In this document: one piece after another, positions 31,987-40,692 of the stretch
How the letters are laid out: every line of letters begins with the position of its first letter
Numbering within the stretch: the stretch's first letter is position 1
From: Deltaproteobacteria bacterium
GTDB lineage: Bacteria > Lernaellota > Lernaellaia > JACKCT01
Length of the DNA stretch: 44,977 nucleotides
NCBI GenBank assembly: GCA_020845895.1
Contig: JADLEX010000085.1
Coordinates: 1 to 44,977, forward strand
Direction of reading: 5' to 3'
The notes under the pieces: model-generated
Seen by the model: the letters and a program-made list of their open reading frames with translations, nothing else
The model's database searches: none
Told to the model about the DNA's origin: nothing
Translations under genes and position numbers: made by a program

Positions 31987-33267
31987 ATGAAAATCCTTGT
32001 CGTTGGTTCGGGCGGGCGCGAGCACGCCCTGTGCTGGAAGATCCTTCAGTCTCCCGAGGTCACGCAGCTCTTCTGCGTGCCGGGAAACGCCGGCACGGCG
32101 AAAATCGCCCAGAATGTGGCCATCGACGCCGATGACGTGCGCAAGCTCGTCGCCTTCGCCGAATACGAGGAGCTCGATCTCGTGGTCGTCGGCCCCGAAG
32201 CGCCGCTCGTGGCGGGGCTGGTCGACGAGTTGTCCGACCGCGACATCCCCGCGTTCGGACCCACCGCGGCGGCCGCGCGCATCGAGGGCAGCAAGGCCTT
32301 CACCAAGTCGCTGCTCGAACGTGCGAACGTGCCCACGGCGCGGGCAAGAAGCTTCGCCGACTACGATCTGGCCCTCGACTTCGCCGGGCGGCTCGGCTCG
32401 CCGGTGGTGCTCAAGGCCGACGGGCTCGCCGCGGGCACGGGCGTGCTCATCTGCGAAACGCATGCGGATGTCGAGGCCGGGCTTCGCGAAATCCTCGTGC
32501 AGCGCAAGTTCGGCGATGCGGGCCGGCGCGTGCTCGTCGAAGAGTTTCTGGACGGTGAAGAGGCGAGTTTTCTGGCACTCACCGACGGAAAAACCATCCT
32601 GCCGCTCGCCACGAGTCAGGATCACAAACGCGTGAACGACGGCGACCGGGGACCGAACACGGGCGGCATGGGGGCGTACTCCCCGGCGCCGGTGGTGGAC
32701 GACGCGGTGTTTGCCCACGTGGTGCGCGACATTCTGGAACCCACCGTGCGCGCGCTGGCCGAGGATGGCACGCCCTATCGCGGCGTGCTCTACGCCGGGC
32801 TCATGATCAAGGACGGCCGCGCGAAGGTGCTGGAGTACAACGCGCGACTCGGCGACCCCGAAACACAGCCGCTGCTCGCGCGCATGAAAAGCGATCTGGT
32901 CCCGCTGATGAAGGCGTGCGTGAACGGCACGTTGGCGGGGCACGCCATCGAGTGGGACCCCCGGCCGGCGGTGTGCGTGGTCATGACGGCGGGCGGCTAT
33001 CCCGGCGCTTACAAGAAGGGAAAAACGATCACGGGCCACGATGAGGACTTCGGTCCCGACACCGTGGTCTTTCACGCGGGAACCGATCTGCGCGAGGGGC
33101 GTGTCGTCACCAGCGGCGGCCGGGTACTCGGCGTCACGGCGCTCGGAGACGATATCGCGCGGGCGATCGAAAACGCCTACGCCGCGGCCGACCGCATCCG
33201 GTTCGAAGGCGCGCACTTCCGGCGCGACATCGGCGCGCGGGCCATTCGAAGGCTTACGGGGGAATGA
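31987..33267 (+). CDS. purD: Phosphoribosylamine-glycine ligase
   Basis: 426 residues. ATP-grasp enzyme that joins glycine to phosphoribosylamine, step two of de novo purine synthesis. Motifs: [18 protein letters not shown] at the N-terminus, [60 protein letters not shown] (ATP lid), [30 protein letters not shown] and [14 protein letters not shown], where many relatives have FGDPETQ. Length and order are typical. Start ATG 31987 follows a GGAGCGGG stretch. The downstream purE ATG overlaps its stop. Confidence 0.97.
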
Positions 33268-33770
33268 TGAAAACCGTCGCCGTTCTCATGGGGTCCGATT
33301 CGGATTTCGGCGTGATGCAAAAATGCGTCGAACAGCTTCGCGCGTTCGGGATCGCCGTCGAAGTGCGCGTGCTCTCGGCGCATCGCAGCCCCGACGACAC
33401 GGCCCGGTTCGTCAAGGGCGCGGCGAAGCGCAACGTGGGTGTCTTCATCGCGGCGGCGGGCGGCGCGGCGCACTTGGCGGGAGCGGTCGCGGCCCACACG
33501 TCGCTGCCCGTGATCGGCGTGCCGATCGCGGCGACGCCGCTGGGCGGGCTGGACGCGCTGCTCGCCACGGTGCAGATGCCGCCGGGCGTGCCGGTGGCGA
33601 CCGTGGCGATCGGCGACTACGGCGCGACGAATGCAGCCGTTTTGGCTGCGCAGATTCTGGCGGTTGGAGACGCGGAACTGGCGCGGGCCGTCGCGGCGCA
33701 CAAAGCCGGCCAACGCGAAGGTGTCGCGAAGAAAAACGCCGCGCTCCAGAAGAAACTGAAGTCGATCTGA
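33264..33770 (+). CDS. purE: 5-(carboxyamino)imidazole ribonucleotide mutase
   Basis: 168 residues. The start overlaps the purD stop (ATGATGA), so purD and purE are translationally coupled; the second ATG (33267) is equally possible. Class I PurE motifs: [49 protein letters not shown] and [17 protein letters not shown]. It converts N5-CAIR to CAIR in purine synthesis. The usual partner purK is not in the window. The C-terminal Lys-rich helix extends a little past the core. Confidence 0.96.
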
Positions 33771-33809: not shown

Positions 33810-35225
33810 GTGAGGCGAATCGCCATCGATCGCGAACGTCCGGACGCGTCGGCGCTCCGGACCGCCGCCGACATCCTCAATGACGGCGGCGTCATCGTGT
33901 TTCCGACCGATACGCTCTACGGCATGATCTGCCGGCTCGACCGGCCCGCCGCGGTGGAGCGAATCAAGCAGATCAAGCAGCATGACGACTACAAGGCGAT
34001 GCCGTGCCTGGCGCCGGATGTTCCCACCGCGCTCGCCGCGTACTTTCCGCATCCGCCCCGTCTCAACGTCGTCGCAGACCACCTCTGGCCGGGGCCGATT
34101 ACGCTGATCGGTTCGGCGATGCCGCACCTCATCGGCGCGGCCACGGGCGACGGGCCGTACATCGGCATCCGCGTTCCCGATTTGCCCGCGCTCACCCGGC
34201 TCGGGCGCCTTTGCGAGGGTGCGCTGCTCGTGGCGACGAGCGCCAATCCCCACGGCAAACTCGCGGCGACCAACACATCCATGATGCGAGAGTACTTCGG
34301 CGACGTCGAAGACCTGACGTTCTTCGACGCGGGAGTGCTCGATTCGCTGGGCAGCACCGTCGTGGACCTGTCCGTCGAACCGCCGAAACTCATCCGCCGG
34401 GGCGAGATGCCGTTCGAAATCGTCGAGCGCGTGCTCGGCCGTCCGCTCGCCGAGGTCGTGGTGCGCCCGGACGAGCGCCTTCAGGATCTGATGCGCGGTC
34501 CTTTGCGGATCATTCAGAAAAAGTCCGGTTTCCGATACTCGATCGACGCGCTGCTGCTCGCCGCTTTCACCGCGTTCGAGGCCGACGACCGGATCGCGGA
34601 CATCGGATGCGGCAGCGGCGTGATCCCGCTGCTCCTCGCGGGACGCGGCGCGCGAAAGGTCGTGGGCATCGAGCACCAGGAGGAGATCGCAGACATGGCC
34701 GCGCGGTCGATCCGCGCCAATGGGCTCAATCACCGCGCGTCGGTCGTGTCCGGCGATGCGCGCCGTATCGACGACCTGTTTCCGGCCGGGTCCTTCGACG
34801 TCGTTTGCGCAAACCCCCCCTATTATCCCGCGGACAGCGGGCATCACAGCCCCGACGAAGCCAAGGCCGCCAGCCGCCACGAACTCACGATGACACTGGC
34901 CGACGCCGTGCGCGCGGCGGCGTGGCTGGCGCGCGAGGGCGGCCGGTTTTTCCTGATTCATCTGCACGCGCGGGAAGACGAGGTGATCGCCCAATTCCAC
35001 GCCAATCGGATCGCGCCCGGGCGGCTCCGGCGAGTCGTCACCAAGCCGGGCCAGGAGCCGAGATTCATCCTCGTCGAGGGCCAAAAAGTCGCCCGCGAGG
35101 ATCAGGCGCGCGGCTTCCCCGACGTGCTTCCCGATCTCGCGCTGCACGATGCCGAAGGGCATTTCACGAAGGACGCCGACGCGTTCCTCACGCCGATTCA
35201 GAACCCTTCGATCTCGCTCGGCTGA
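33810..35225 (+). CDS. Fusion: YrdC/YciO-type domain with TrmN6-type tRNA methyltransferase
   Basis: 471 residues from GTG 33810, with GGGAGG just 3 nt upstream; no other start fits the first domain. Residues 5-205 are YrdC/Sua5-like: GGVIVFPTDTLYGMIC, a lysine segment VERIKQIKQHDDYKAMP in the ATP/threonine-binding place, LWPGPITLIGSAM, IGIRVPDLP, LLVATSANPHGK and VVDLSVEPPKLIRRGE. The KxR part is degenerate, more like YciO than TsaC. Residues 220-471 are TrmN6/YfiC-like: FRYSIDALLLAAF, ADIGCGSGVIPLLLA (motif I) and ANPPYYP with N335-P-P-Y338 as motif IV. In this family the NPPY motif methylates an adenine N6 (A37 of tRNA-Val1 in E. coli). YrdC enzymes start t6A37 synthesis. So one protein may join two A37 modifications; this is inferred. 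It lies beside rlmN (m2A37/m2A2503), convergent by 9 bp. Confidence 0.85.
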   Translation: MRRIAIDRERPDASALRTAADILNDGGVIVFPTDTLYGMICRLDRPAAVERIKQIKQHDDYKAMPCLAPDVPTALAAYFPHPPRLNVVADHLWPGPITLIGSAMPHLIGAATGDGPYIGIRVPDLPALTRLGRLCEGALLVATSANPHGKLAATNTSMMREYFGDVEDLTFFDAGVLDSLGSTVVDLSVEPPKLIRRGEMPFEIVERVLGRPLAEVVVRPDERLQDLMRGPLRIIQKKSGFRYSIDALLLAAFTAFEADDRIADIGCGSGVIPLLLAGRGARKVVGIEHQEEIADMAARSIRANGLNHRASVVSGDARRIDDLFPAGSFDVVCANPPYYPADSGHHSPDEAKAASRHELTMTLADAVRAAAWLAREGGRFFLIHLHAREDEVIAQFHANRIAPGRLRRVVTKPGQEPRFILVEGQKVAREDQARGFPDVLPDLALHDAEGHFTKDADAFLTPIQNPSISLG

Positions 35226-35234
35226 CCGGTCGCA

Positions 35235-36314
35235 TCACGCGGGCGGTGAGGCGGCGTCGAGGCTGCGAAGCTGACCGCACGCGGCGAGAATGTCCTGCCC
35301 CCGGCTGCGGCGAACGACGCAGTTGATGCGCGCGTTCAGCAAAATCCGCTGGAATGCGCGCACGCGCGGCTCGGGCGTCGCCGCGTATGGGCTGCCCGGC
35401 CACGGGTTGAAGCAGATCAGATTCACGTGCGCCTTGAGCGGCGCCATCAGGCGAATCAGGCGGCGCGCGTCCTCGTCGCGATCGTTCACTCCGTCGAGCA
35501 GCGTGTATTCATAGGTGATGCGCCGGCGGTTGCTGAGCGGGTAGTCGCGGCACGCGGCGAGCAACTCCCCGATCGGGTGCTTCTTGTTGATCGGCATGAG
35601 GCGGGAGCGCGTGTCGTCGTCCGTGGCGTGCAGCGAGATCGCGAGCGATACGTCAGTGTCCTGTCCGAGTTGCCGGATCGCCGGGACGATACCCGCCGTC
35701 GAGATCGTCACGCGCCGGTTCGAGAAGTTCATTCCGAGGTCGTCGGTCAAGATACGCGCCGCAGCCACGGTCGCGTCGTAATTGAGCAGAGGCTCGCCCA
35801 TCCCCATGAACACGACGTTGGTGATGTCGCGGTCCGCAACCTCGCGCCGCGCGGCCCGGATCTGCTCGACGATTTCCCATGCCGCGAGCTGTCGCTCGAG
35901 ACGCATCGTGCCCGTCCGGCAGAATCGACAGTTCAGGCTGCAACCCACCTGCGTGCTCACGCAGATCGTCAGGCGCCCCGGCTCGGGGATCAGCACCGAT
36001 TCGACCTTCGCGCCGTCGGGCAAACGAAGCAGGAACTTCTGGGTCCCGTCCGCCGCGGTGCTCACATTTTCGACGCCGCCCGCGTCGATCCGGTACAGAC
36101 CGGCGAGCTCGGCGCGCAGGTCCTTCCGGATATTCGTCATGGCGTCAAACGAGTCCGCGCCGCGCGCGTAAATCCATTGGAAGATCTGGTCGGCGCGGTA
36201 AGCGCTCTGGCCGATCCGGCGCATCTCCTCGCGCAAATCCTCCCGGGTCAGTCCCGTGAGGGGTTTGCGCGCGTCCATTCCCGGTTCCGTCGATTTCACG
36301 CTCTGTCCGGTCAT
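35235..36314 (-). CDS. rlmN: Dual-specificity 23S rRNA A2503/tRNA A37 C2-methyltransferase RlmN
   Basis: 359 residues from ATG 36314 (GAGG about 6 nt upstream); ATG 36335 in frame has no ribosome site. RlmN signatures: LTREDLREEMRRIG, AYRADQIFQWIY, ICVSTQVGCSLNCRFCRTG with C118 and cluster cysteines C125, C129, C132, NVVFMGMGEPLLNYD, TISTAGIVPAIRQLG, SLAISLHATDDDTR and AACGQL with the methyl-carrying C346. It is a radical SAM enzyme that adds methyl to C2 of A2503 in 23S rRNA and A37 of some tRNAs. All catalytic cysteines are conserved. It converges on the YrdC-TrmN6 fusion. Confidence 0.96.
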   Translation of the reverse strand: MTGQSVKSTEPGMDARKPLTGLTREDLREEMRRIGQSAYRADQIFQWIYARGADSFDAMTNIRKDLRAELAGLYRIDAGGVENVSTAADGTQKFLLRLPDGAKVESVLIPEPGRLTICVSTQVGCSLNCRFCRTGTMRLERQLAAWEIVEQIRAARREVADRDITNVVFMGMGEPLLNYDATVAAARILTDDLGMNFSNRRVTISTAGIVPAIRQLGQDTDVSLAISLHATDDDTRSRLMPINKKHPIGELLAACRDYPLSNRRRITYEYTLLDGVNDRDEDARRLIRLMAPLKAHVNLICFNPWPGSPYAATPEPRVRAFQRILLNARINCVVRRSRGQDILAACGQLRSLDAASPPA

Positions 36315-36455
36315 CTGGCCTCGCCCGCCGCCCATTTTTCGGTTCGGCGGTCCCGCTTCTCGTGCACCGCGAGAGATTCGTCCATGACGGCCATCACAAG
36401 GGCCGCCGTCCCCGCGTCATTTACACGCCGGGCGTGCGTGTGGCATGAGGTTACG

Positions 36456-37703
36456 ATGGAACCCGGAGCCGAACAACGTCCTCGGTTCCGCCGGTGGCGG
36501 CGAACGGCCCTCGCGTGTGTGGCGCTCGCCGTCGCCGCCGGTTGCTCTCCCTCGCCCGGCCCGGTATTGCCCGCACAGGATTTCGGCGACGAGCCGATCG
36601 GATTCGCGATCACGGCCGCGGAAAGGAAACTTGGCGAAACGATCGAACGGCTCGGCGAACGCCGCGCCGGAGCGCCGGACCGCGAAAACGTGCTGTGCGC
36701 GGTCTCCCGCAACCTCGCGCACGAAGTCGTCGCGAACGGCGTCGATCGGATCGACGAACTGACGACCGAGCGCATCAGTGAAAAAATGCGCGAGATGGGC
36801 AGCGTGGACAATGCGTTTCGCTCTTACGTTTTCAACGAACTCACCCTCGGCCGCGCGGCCGCCCAGCTCGAAGAACTGATCGACGAGGAACTGCGGGAAA
36901 AGCACCACACGCACTACGGCGTGGGCGCGGTGCGCACGTGGTGGCCGCCGGGGTACATGGTCGGTGTGTTGCTGGTGCGCAAGAGTGTGCGGATCGAGCC
37001 CGTCAAACGCCGGATGAAGGTCGGGGAGGACCTGTTTGTCCAGGGACAACTCCTGAACGGATCCGAACCGGTGACACTCTGGGTGCAGGGTCCCGTCGAG
37101 ACGCAGACCATGGACCTGACGTTCAACTTCGAAGGCAGGTTTTCGCGGATGATCCGCCTGCGCGACAACGGGCGATATCACGTCGAGATCATGACCACCA
37201 CGCAGAACGGACCCGAGGTGGCCGCGCTCTTCGAGGTCGTGGCCGGTCTGGAGTCGGCCGCGACCGTTTCGGCCCGTCCGCGACCGACGCCGCTCGCGGA
37301 ACCTCTTGTGACGCCGGAAGGCATGCGCGCGCGGATGATCGAACTGGTGAACGACGAACGCGACCGAGAGGACCTGTTGCCGGTCGGCGAGGACTCCATT
37401 CTCAATACCGTCGCCCAGCGTTACGCCGAGGAGATGTTGCGAAACCGCCGGGTCGTCCACGTCTCGCCCGACTCGGGCGATTTGGTCGACCGCGCGAAGG
37501 CGGTGGGCATCGACTTCGTGAAGATTTCCGAGAACATCGCGGTCAATCAGAACGTCGACGTCGTTCACGACGACCTGATGCGGTCCCCGTCGCATCGGCG
37601 CAACATTCTGGATGGACAGGTGGACAGGATCGGCGTTGGGATCGCGATCGACCCGGACGGAGGGCATGTATACGTGGTCCAGAACTTCGCCCGGCTGCGC
37701 TGA
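36456..37703 (+). CDS. Lipoprotein with C-terminal CAP (SCP/PR1) domain and a degenerate second copy
   Basis: 415 residues; GAGG about 6 nt upstream of ATG. The signal RWRRTALACVALAVAAGC gives a lipobox with Cys at about residue 27. The C-terminal 125 residues are a clear CAP domain: MIELVNDERDREDLLPV, LNTVAQRYAEEMLRNRRVVH, KISENIAVNQNVDVVHDDL, SPSHRRNIL and DRIGVGIAID. The N-terminal half (about 55-190) resembles a degraded CAP domain (RENVLCAVSRNLAHEVV, FNELTLGRAA, HYGVGAVRTWW). A beta domain of about 90 residues lies between. CAP lipoproteins are often lipid- or peptidoglycan-associated; metal-ligand histidines are only partly kept here. Promoter not obvious; it is followed by the signalling genes on the same strand. 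Confidence 0.85.
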   Translation: MEPGAEQRPRFRRWRRTALACVALAVAAGCSPSPGPVLPAQDFGDEPIGFAITAAERKLGETIERLGERRAGAPDRENVLCAVSRNLAHEVVANGVDRIDELTTERISEKMREMGSVDNAFRSYVFNELTLGRAAAQLEELIDEELREKHHTHYGVGAVRTWWPPGYMVGVLLVRKSVRIEPVKRRMKVGEDLFVQGQLLNGSEPVTLWVQGPVETQTMDLTFNFEGRFSRMIRLRDNGRYHVEIMTTTQNGPEVAALFEVVAGLESAATVSARPRPTPLAEPLVTPEGMRARMIELVNDERDREDLLPVGEDSILNTVAQRYAEEMLRNRRVVHVSPDSGDLVDRAKAVGIDFVKISENIAVNQNVDVVHDDLMRSPSHRRNILDGQVDRIGVGIAIDPDGGHVYVVQNFARLR

Positions 37704-37790
37704 AGACCCGCGTCGGGGCTCATCTGGAAAAAATCCAAGAGATCGCGTAAAATCAAGCGCTAATAGGCACAGATCCGGGCTCGGGAGTCC

Positions 37791-38954
37791 ATGACAGCGG
37801 AACCGACCACGCAATTTTCGCCGGAAAGCGAAAGCGTCGTTCACCACATTCTCATTGTGGACGACGAGCCGGAGAACCTCGACCTGCTGGCGTCGACGCT
37901 GCGCCGCGGGAATCGGATCTTCAAGGCGCACAGCGGCGACGAGGCCCTGGCGCTCCTCGAAACCGAGGACATCCACATGGTCATCACCGACCAGAGGATG
38001 CCGGGCATCTCGGGCACGCAGATCCTTCAGGTCCTGCGCGAAAAATACGAGCACATCATCCGGATTCTGATCACCGGCTACGCCGACATGAAGGTCGCGG
38101 TGGACGCGATCAACAAGGGGCAGGTGCAGCGCTACATCACCAAGCCCTGGGACCCCGGCGACCTGAAGTCCGCGGTCGCTTATGAACTGAAGCGCTTCGA
38201 CCTTCAGGAGTCGAACAAGCGCCTGACGCGGGAGCTGCTGCGCAAGAACGAAGAGCTCGAGGCGATGAATGCCGAGCTCCAGCGCCAGAAGGACGAAATC
38301 GAGCGACTGGCGATGGAGTACAAGGAGCAGAAGGAAATCGCGATCGAGATGAGCGACAAGCTCGCCCGGTCGAACCTGGATCTGCTCAAGGCGCAGGAAG
38401 AGATCAAGCTCAAGAACGTCAAGCTCGAAGCGGCGAACAAGAAGCTGGAACGCCTCTCGATCACCGACCCGCTGACGGGCTTTTTCAACAAACGCCACCT
38501 GTTCCAGATCCTGGAAGGCGAAATCGGCCGCGCGAAGCGATATGATCTGAATCTTTCCATTCTCATGATCGATATGGATAACTTCAAGTCGGTGAACGAC
38601 ACTTGGGGCCACCCCTTCGGGGATCTGGTCATCAAACGGGTGACGGAGAAGATCCGACGCAATATCCGCGAAACAGACTACCCCACGCGCTACGGCGGCG
38701 ACGAGTTCATCGTCATCCTGCCGCACACGGGAATCGAGCGCGCGATGTACATGGCGAAGCGCATGCACTCCGACATCCGGGTGTCGCACCTGACGAGCCC
38801 CGACGGCGCGCTCGTCACGCCGCAGGTTTCGATCGGCGTCGCCTACTACCCGCACCCGAAAATTTCGAACAAGGAGCAGATGATCGCCATCGCCGACGAG
38901 GCGCTGTACAAGGCCAAGGAACAGGGCCGCAACTGCATCATCGTCGCCGAGTGA
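37791..38954 (+). CDS. Response regulator with GGDEF output (diguanylate cyclase)
   Basis: 387 residues. REC domain (about 18-140): ILIVDDEPENLDLLA, phosphoacceptor D67 in VITDQRMPG, ILITGYADM and YITKPWDP. A charged coiled coil (about 145-225, EELEAMNAELQRQKDEIERL) joins it to the GGDEF domain (about 225-385): LTGFFNKRHLF, MDNFKSVNDTWGHPFGD, RYGGDEF with GGDEF at 302-306 and an inhibitory RETD (RxxD) site five residues upstream, so product inhibition by c-di-GMP is likely. VSIGVAYYP and EALYKAKEQGRN finish it. It starts 20 bp before the histidine-kinase gene, so the pair likely forms a two-component system making c-di-GMP. A TAAAAT-like -10 lies at 37748-37753. Confidence 0.94.
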   Translation: MTAEPTTQFSPESESVVHHILIVDDEPENLDLLASTLRRGNRIFKAHSGDEALALLETEDIHMVITDQRMPGISGTQILQVLREKYEHIIRILITGYADMKVAVDAINKGQVQRYITKPWDPGDLKSAVAYELKRFDLQESNKRLTRELLRKNEELEAMNAELQRQKDEIERLAMEYKEQKEIAIEMSDKLARSNLDLLKAQEEIKLKNVKLEAANKKLERLSITDPLTGFFNKRHLFQILEGEIGRAKRYDLNLSILMIDMDNFKSVNDTWGHPFGDLVIKRVTEKIRRNIRETDYPTRYGGDEFIVILPHTGIERAMYMAKRMHSDIRVSHLTSPDGALVTPQVSIGVAYYPHPKISNKEQMIAIADEALYKAKEQGRNCIIVAE

Positions 38955-38973: not shown

Positions 38974-40692
38974 ATGTTGAACCGGATCGTCGCCTGGCTC
39001 AGCGAACGTGGAGCCATTGGACTCGCCATGGCGGTCGCCGCGCCGGCCACGGTACTCGCGGCGTTCGCGCTGGTGTCGGTGGCGACGGTCGGAGAGGCGG
39101 GCCCGACGCCGCGCGAATATGCGCTCATCTTCGGCGTGTGGGCCCTGATCGCGGCGGGCGGCGGCGGCATCGCGTGGTTGATCGGACAGCGGCAGGTCCG
39201 CGCCCTTCGCGACCTCGATGCCGCGGCGGATGCGGTGGAGCGCGGCGAGATCCGTCTGCCGCCGCGCAACGCGCCCGGGGGGCGGTTCGCGGAGCTCGAA
39301 AGCAAGATCGTGCGCATCGGCAAGGCGCTCGACGAACGCTCGCAGCTCACGGCGCGCACCCAGCCCAGCGAAAAACTCCAGGATGAACTGTCCGAGGAGA
39401 AGCGGCGTTTCGAGGCGTTCCTTCGCGGCATCGGCGACCCCGTCACGATCGTCGACAAGGAATTCCGCATCATCTACGTCAACGACACGGTGAAGAAGAT
39501 CTTCGGCGACCACACCGGCGATCACTGCTTCAAGGTCTACGAGCACAAGACCGACGTGTGCGGCGGATGCCCCGTGCGCCGGTCGATGGACACGGGTAAC
39601 GTCGAGCACTCGCTGCGCCGCGTTTACACCCGCGACGACAAGCTGCTCTACATGGAAGCGACGGGCAGCCCGATCCGCGACGACAAGGGCAACATCATCG
39701 CGGGCATCGAACTGGCCCGCGACGTCACGCAGCGCATCAAGCTCGAGCGCAGCGTCGAGATTCGCTCGCGCGAGCTGGCCGTCGCCAACGAGGAACTGCG
39801 CATCGCCAACGAGCAGCTCCAGCAAGCATACGAAGAGCTCAAAGCGGCCCAGTCGGCCCTCTTCCAGTCCGAAAAAATGGCGTCGCTGGGTGTGCTCGTC
39901 GCCGGCGTCGCGCACGAGATCAACAACCCGGTCAACTTCGTCTACGGCTCGATGCCGCTGCTCGACGAGAACATCCGGGCGCTGCTCACGCTCGTCGAAC
40001 AGATCGAGACGATGGACATCGCCGAGGACCAGAAGGACGTCATCCGCAAGATCAAGCAGGAAATCGATTACGAGTACGTGCAGGAAGACCTGGGGCGCAT
40101 CGTCAAGAACGTCGCGACGGGCGCCCAGCGCATCAAGGAAATCGTGCAGAACCTGCGCACATTCTCGCGCGTGGATTCGGGCGAAAACGTCGACATGGAC
40201 CTGCACCAGGGCATCGACAGCACGCTCGAAATTCTGCGCCACGAGTACAAGAACCGGGTCGAAATCAAAAAGGAATACAGCGAGATTCCGGTTCTGATCG
40301 GCAACCCGGGCAAGATGAATCAGGTTTTCATGAACATCCTCCACAACGCGATCCAGGCGATCGAGACCGAGGGAAAGATCTCGATCCGCACCTTCGTCGA
40401 GGGACCAAACGTCGTGGTGGAGATCGAGGACTCGGGCAGGGGGATCGCGCCGGAAAACCTCGGCAAAATCTTCGACCCGTTTTTCACGACCAAAAAGGTG
40501 GGCGAGGGGACGGGATTGGGACTTTCCATCAGTTACAGTATCGTACAGGATCACAACGGTCGCCTGACCTGTCGAAGCCAGGTCGGCCAGGGAACCACGT
40601 TCCGCATCGAGCTTCCCATGCGGGAGCAGGACATGGAGACACGGGAGCAGACGACGACCTATGGCCTTAAGACCCATCCTTTGGCATCCTGA
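38974..40692 (+). CDS. PAS-domain sensor histidine kinase
   Basis: 572 residues. Two TM segments (about 14-38 and 50-72) and a HAMP-like linker (ALRDLDAAADAVERGEI) precede a PAS domain (about 143-255: FLRGIGDPVTIVDKEFRI, IYVNDTVKKIFG). The PAS carries C185, C196 and C199 (C-x10-C-x2-C, ending CGGCPV), a possible redox or metal site. Then a coiled coil, the HisKA phosphorylation motif LVAGVAHEINNP with His314, and the HATPase core: LHNAIQAIE (N box), IEDSGRGI (G1), FDPFFTTKKVGEGTGLGLSI (F and G2). It probably phosphorylates the response regulator upstream. Its 3' end overlaps the start of def by 32 nt, suggesting a single transcript with def-fmt-rsmB. Confidence 0.93.
   Translation: MLNRIVAWLSERGAIGLAMAVAAPATVLAAFALVSVATVGEAGPTPREYALIFGVWALIAAGGGGIAWLIGQRQVRALRDLDAAADAVERGEIRLPPRNAPGGRFAELESKIVRIGKALDERSQLTARTQPSEKLQDELSEEKRRFEAFLRGIGDPVTIVDKEFRIIYVNDTVKKIFGDHTGDHCFKVYEHKTDVCGGCPVRRSMDTGNVEHSLRRVYTRDDKLLYMEATGSPIRDDKGNIIAGIELARDVTQRIKLERSVEIRSRELAVANEELRIANEQLQQAYEELKAAQSALFQSEKMASLGVLVAGVAHEINNPVNFVYGSMPLLDENIRALLTLVEQIETMDIAEDQKDVIRKIKQEIDYEYVQEDLGRIVKNVATGAQRIKEIVQNLRTFSRVDSGENVDMDLHQGIDSTLEILRHEYKNRVEIKKEYSEIPVLIGNPGKMNQVFMNILHNAIQAIETEGKISIRTFVEGPNVVVEIEDSGRGIAPENLGKIFDPFFTTKKVGEGTGLGLSISYSIVQDHNGRLTCRSQVGQGTTFRIELPMREQDMETREQTTTYGLKTHPLAS

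Follow-up and report, generated by a model that had tools for sequence, protein, structure and literature searches.

A predicted TsaC-type domain fused to a TrmM/YabB-type methyltransferase, derived from a conserved operon partnership

Can two enzymes for position 37 of tRNA be carried by one polypeptide, and would its halves then serve the same tRNAs? The question is raised by a single open frame of 471 codons (33810-35225, plus strand) in the window, the whole 44,977-nucleotide stretch of DNA that was analysed. As the original prediction had stated, and as the frame, Pfam matches and PDB relatives bear out, this frame joins a YrdC domain to a methyltransferase of the TrmN6/YabB/TrmM type. 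It begins with a GTG start codon, has GGGAGG upstream and starts 39 bp downstream of the end of purE. The features of the locus are these:

31987-33267, plus strand: purD, conserved upstream neighbour (TIGR00877, 525 bits; synteny)
33264-33770, plus strand: purE, conserved upstream neighbour (TIGR01162, 186 bits; synteny)
33810-34430, plus strand: N-terminal TsaC-type (YrdC) domain, residues 1-207, predicted threonylcarbamoyl-AMP (TC-AMP) synthase (PF01300, phmmer, residues)
34431-34470, plus strand: short interdomain junction, about residues 208-220 (gapless alignment to the sibling fusion; secondary structure of the model)
34471-35225, plus strand: C-terminal TrmM/YabB/TrmN6-type (COG4123-like) predicted N6-adenine methyltransferase (3lpm, TrmM, Foldseek, profiles)
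35235-36335, minus strand: rlmN, convergent with the fusion (TIGR00048, 405 bits, cut-off 290)

Further along, the window encodes a CAP-domain protein and, after it, a response regulator-GGDEF protein (36417-38954), and then a PAS histidine kinase (38974-40692).

The phylum of the window organism is represented here by seven genomes: the window genome itself (G000), two of the same family, a small one of uncultured bacteria (G001 and G002), and four class relatives (G003-G006). In G001, a second species of the family, the halves lie in one frame, with 44-45% identity continuing through an aligned junction. In G002, a third species, the fusion is split by one frameshift into two overlapping frames. 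The extra base, either a sequencing error or a recent frameshift, lies inside the YrdC domain (L035:7980-8160), and the C-terminus of that domain is read in the methyltransferase frame, which marks the locus as a frameshifted fusion and not as two genes. Because G001 carries the same fusion in one frame and G002 carries it with one frameshift, the window gene is not an assembly artefact; the original prediction had allowed for separate frames in close relatives, and the same-family relatives are instead fused. A two-domain AlphaFold2 model, for which only window and locus sequences served as input, was of high confidence (mean pLDDT 92.8, pTM 0.77). In a Foldseek search with this model, SAH-bound TrmM was the best match (TMt 0.90-0.92), followed by 3lpm and then Sua5/TsaC2. 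The matching junction in a second genome and the model together rule out an assembly or chance fusion.

In the four class relatives, yrdC and the methyltransferase gene are separate and always follow purD-purE, in the operon order purD-purE-yrdC-(DUF1015)-methyltransferase. A DUF1015 gene stands between the two in G003-G005 (L037:8545-9978, L039:7587-8900), and in G006 yrdC directly adjoins the methyltransferase gene. The simplest path to the fusion is loss of DUF1015 followed by gene fusion. Elsewhere, in G176 (L073), a DUF1015-like gene is also found beside the methyltransferase gene. Every class relative keeps the upstream purE, and so does another phylum, unrelated to the first, where family f95 and its relatives hold a tight purE-yrdC-methyltransferase group. 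In one genus of this second phylum, yrdC and the methyltransferase gene share a frame with a single stop between them. This intergenic stop is TGA, TAG or TAA depending on the species; recoding of an in-frame stop was rejected, since the occurrence of all three marks them as real stops. The fusion is real and vertically maintained and, given that the halves share an operon in the class and form a tight pair in a second phylum, derived from a conserved operon partnership.

The partnership is selective rather than universal, since several other genomes in a 386-genome sample that hold both halves have the genes far apart. As to how widespread the fusion is, it recurs in G001 and G002, and neither the 386-genome sample nor the second phylum, from which 28 genomes were examined, yielded a further one-frame fusion; overall, only about 500 genomes were sampled for fusions and pairs. 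Narrow sequence patterns run against viral contigs and genome contigs matched no relatives, these patterns being too narrow to imply absence. A search of the open-access literature found no description of a TsaC-methyltransferase fusion or link, and as far as searched there the domain combination is new, its component kinds of enzyme being known.

On the downstream side, rlmN is convergent with the fusion, and 9 bases separate the stop ends of the two genes, a distance that the original prediction gave correctly. Its range of 33810-36335 also took in rlmN, as a third member of an A37 module, and this part of the claim is not borne out. G001-G005 each have an rlmN match that passes the cut-off, and in all five it is on another contig than the fusion or pair; the G006 match is a fragment that falls short of the cut-off and is likewise on another contig. 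No rlmN was found in the stretches searched around the relatives' fusion or pair. Since every confident match in these five genomes is on a contig apart from the fusion or pair, the proximity of rlmN is most likely incidental, and by synteny it is no part of the fusion. A three-enzyme A37 module including rlmN, to which the close convergent arrangement in the window genome would lend some colour, is thus scarcely credible.

The N-terminal half could be of the TsaC or of the YciO type. PF01300 covers residues 22-198 at 120 bits (cut-off 25.1). With residues 1-207, the best relatives found by phmmer in the PDB were MTH1692 and TsaC2/Sua5, and Foldseek likewise matched the YrdC half to TsaC2/Sua5. 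The window genome, which is 99.5% complete, holds only three PF01300 proteins: the fusion, C102 and C121. The last of these is HypF, with hypC downstream. As a candidate for a separate canonical TsaC, C102 (L043:6526-7269) was rejected as YciO-type: with its orthologues it forms a clade with E. coli YciO (support 100/99), its SxN motif is broken (STSAY, with the Asn missing) and KxK stands in place of KxR. A YciO-type copy is retained in all these genomes. The fused half lies outside the YciO clade, on a TsaC side whose branching order the tree does not settle. It carries T143, the TsaC-type Thr before SxN at the Pro/Thr signature site, and its PTDT, WPGP, TSAN, GSTVVD and RRG motifs are intact. 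Because the other two PF01300 proteins are YciO-type and HypF, the fused half would, by elimination, be the only TsaC-type enzyme of the window genome. This genome also encodes TsaD, a TsaB-like protein and TsaE, and judging from its gene content the cell appears to depend on the fused protein alone for the first step of the essential t6A modification.

Profile scores do not separate the fused half from YciO: it reaches 59 bits on the TsaC model and 104 bits on TIGR00057 (cut-off 123), on which E. coli YciO reaches 265 bits, C102 198 and E. coli TsaC 117. E. coli YciO was the top TIGR00057 scorer among the seven proteins tested. The curated TIGR00057 model gives C102 the name L-threonylcarbamoyladenylate synthase, which is likely misleading. 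Because the two YciO-type proteins outscore E. coli TsaC and the fused half on this model, automatic naming would pick the wrong gene, an annotation trap in which the YciO-type paralogue would be named as TC-AMP synthase and the fused one missed.

A degenerate KxR motif in the YrdC half, another point of the original prediction, is confirmed, and it is confined to the window species. In Pa-Sua5 numbering, the key residues are K56xR58/S143xN145 together with the threonine-binding T33, S181 and R195, and the residues of the KxR/SxN tetrad are reported to be all required in yeast Sua5 (PMC10321239). Six of these seven residues are present in the fused half (T33, K56, S144, N146, S182 and R196), and the seventh, R58, is replaced by His. 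The tetrad of the window protein is therefore incomplete, with S144-A-N146 kept and KxR reading K56-Q57-H58; it is complete in G001 and G002. Both sibling fusions and the class relatives have KGR, so that KxH is private to the window species. In the second phylum (L134-L153), no species read has Arg at the R58 equivalent, which is instead I, T, S, M, L or similar, and SxN is intact; two of the species were checked for further PF01300 proteins, and each has only a YciO-type one besides. Because the TsaC-type protein of that phylum also does without the arginine, loss of R58 alone does not prove a dead enzyme, and the necessity of the KxR arginine becomes testable there.

The YrdC half of the window species might still have lost TC-AMP synthesis through H58 and become an RNA- or nucleotide-binding module, with TC-AMP made by the YciO-type protein or by an unassembled gene. 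Besides the missing arginine, the retained YciO-type copies and the weak in vitro TC-AMP activity of E. coli YciO (PMC12506659) are consistent with such a loss. However, E. coli YciO fails to stand in for TsaC in vivo (PMC12506659), the YciO-type copy of the window genome is worse off in its own motifs, and the remaining motifs of the fused half are intact. With KGR in the sibling fusions and a whole other phylum lacking the arginine as well, this loss is rather unlikely for the window species. The original suggestion that the domain binds rather than makes TC-AMP may apply to the window species, but is unlikely as a trait of the fusion type, the fused half being the sole TsaC-type protein.

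SAM-methyltransferase profiles cover about residues 242-400 of the C-terminal half. Its PDB relatives are the YabB-like 3lpm (1.8e-39, 139 bits) and Mycoplasma capricolum TrmM, 7wm6 (1.2e-27, 100 bits). Scored against individual enzymes, it reaches 137.7 bits with YabB, 98.5 with TrmM, 37 with E. coli TrmN6 and at most 20.3 with RsmC, PrmB, PrmC and RlmG. The grouping with non-tRNA NPPY enzymes for which the original prediction had allowed was thus not seen in the scores (YabB 138 and TrmM 98 versus 20 bits or less), a comparison of scores and not of tree positions. The nearness to YabB and TrmM is defined by pairwise and profile scores and by the fold; the tree did not place this half relative to PrmC and PrmB. 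The motifs claimed for the protein, GCGSG motif I and NPPY along with K56-Q57-H58 for KxR, are correctly read: motif I is DIGCGSG, and the second motif is NPPYYP. An RHE motif (R356-H357-E358), common to most of the YabB/TrmM group, is also present. The NCBIfam TrmN model is the best methyltransferase model, yet its equivalog cut-off was not reached (57 versus 350 bits). Because of this miss and the unsettled tree placement, a tRNA target is a putative one, carried over by analogy from TrmM, YabB and TrmN6.

In the window genome, tRNA-Val(UAC) has C36-A37 and is a candidate m6A37 substrate; the U36-A37 tRNAs are those for Lys, Arg, Met, Thr and Asn. The expected targets of the two halves therefore differ, U36-A37 tRNAs for t6A and tRNA-Val(UAC) for m6A, which makes the competition for A37 that had been suggested a weak proposition. 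Alternatively, both halves could be active and the methyltransferase could modify another tRNA or another RNA rather than A37 of tRNA-Val. The large sequence distance to E. coli TrmN6 would fit such a shift, and in B. subtilis, which carries YabB, methylated A37 was mapped to elongator tRNA-Met (PMC7408541), so that targets may differ among members of the group. The nearest solved fold, however, is that of TrmM, a tRNA A37 enzyme, and A37 is kept in tRNA-Val(UAC); a different target is, on balance, rather improbable.

A further alternative is that both halves work one after the other on a single set of tRNAs, with t6A turned into m6t6A by the methyltransferase in place of TrmO. TrmO (PF01980), the m6t6A enzyme, was not found in the three fusion genomes (G000, G001 and G002) or in G006, where the genes are adjacent, and is present in G003-G005, where DUF1015 separates them. 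However, these are few genomes related by descent, two of the four that lack TrmO are incomplete (77% and 84%), and G098 lacks TrmO without having the fusion. TrmO has, moreover, an unrelated beta-barrel fold, and we know of no Rossmann-type m6t6A enzyme. Because the sample is small, related and in part incomplete, the TrmO pattern is a lead only, and replacement of TrmO by the fusion is very improbable. Nearly as doubtful is a wider proposal, in which the fusion would couple t6A synthesis to m6A37 activity on t6A tRNAs, giving m6t6A without TrmO, or would sense TC-AMP or threonine to balance the t6A and m6A37 pools.

The reading we consider probable is that of a bifunctional tRNA-A37 enzyme, formed from fused neighbouring operon genes, with predicted TC-AMP synthase and m6A37 methyltransferase activities. 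The N-terminal half would supply TC-AMP for t6A37 of ANN-decoding tRNAs, and the C-terminal half would carry out SAM-dependent N6 methylation of a different tRNA at A37, with tRNA-Val(UAC) the likeliest substrate. Such an enzyme would not have to channel anything from one site to the other. The probable gain would lie in co-expressing two A37 enzymes at a fixed stoichiometry, and the methyltransferase half may add tRNA affinity. What we infer from these comparisons is that both halves are catalytically active, which tRNA the methyltransferase modifies and why the genes fused. H58 in place of the KxR arginine, the TIGR00057 score below its cut-off and the low TrmN6 score count against the bifunctional reading. 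Of the combined A37 module first proposed, the real fusion stands, as does the gene link kept in other families and another phylum; rlmN membership is not borne out, and competition is a weak proposition. The conversion of a conserved gene pair into a single protein is a good sign that TsaC works together with a TrmM/YabB-type methyltransferase, and it provides a natural fusion for testing the coordination of t6A and m6A37 formation.

Among known systems, the N-terminal half resembles TsaC/TsaC2 (Sua5) in fold, in the Thr before SxN, in six of the seven named residues and in being the sole such gene alongside those for TsaD, TsaB and TsaE. Unlike those proteins, which stand alone or carry a SUA5 domain, it is fused to a methyltransferase and has KxH for KxR. 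YciO belongs to the same Pfam family and has its own representative elsewhere in the genome, but the fused half lies outside its clade and keeps SxN. The C-terminal half resembles TrmM, YabB and TrmN6 (7wm6, 3lpm and E. coli YfiC) in its full-length match, in NPPY and RHE and in a fold close to that of SAH-bound TrmM (TMt about 0.9); it differs in carrying an N-terminal TsaC domain, in its distance from the E. coli enzyme and in having a putative target. HypF and TobZ, which are YrdC-Kae1 fusions, are likewise proteins in which YrdC is fused with another enzyme (PMC9654439). In their case, however, the YrdC product is used directly by the attached Kae1-like carbamoyl transferase, whereas the methyltransferase of the present fusion is not expected to use TC-AMP.
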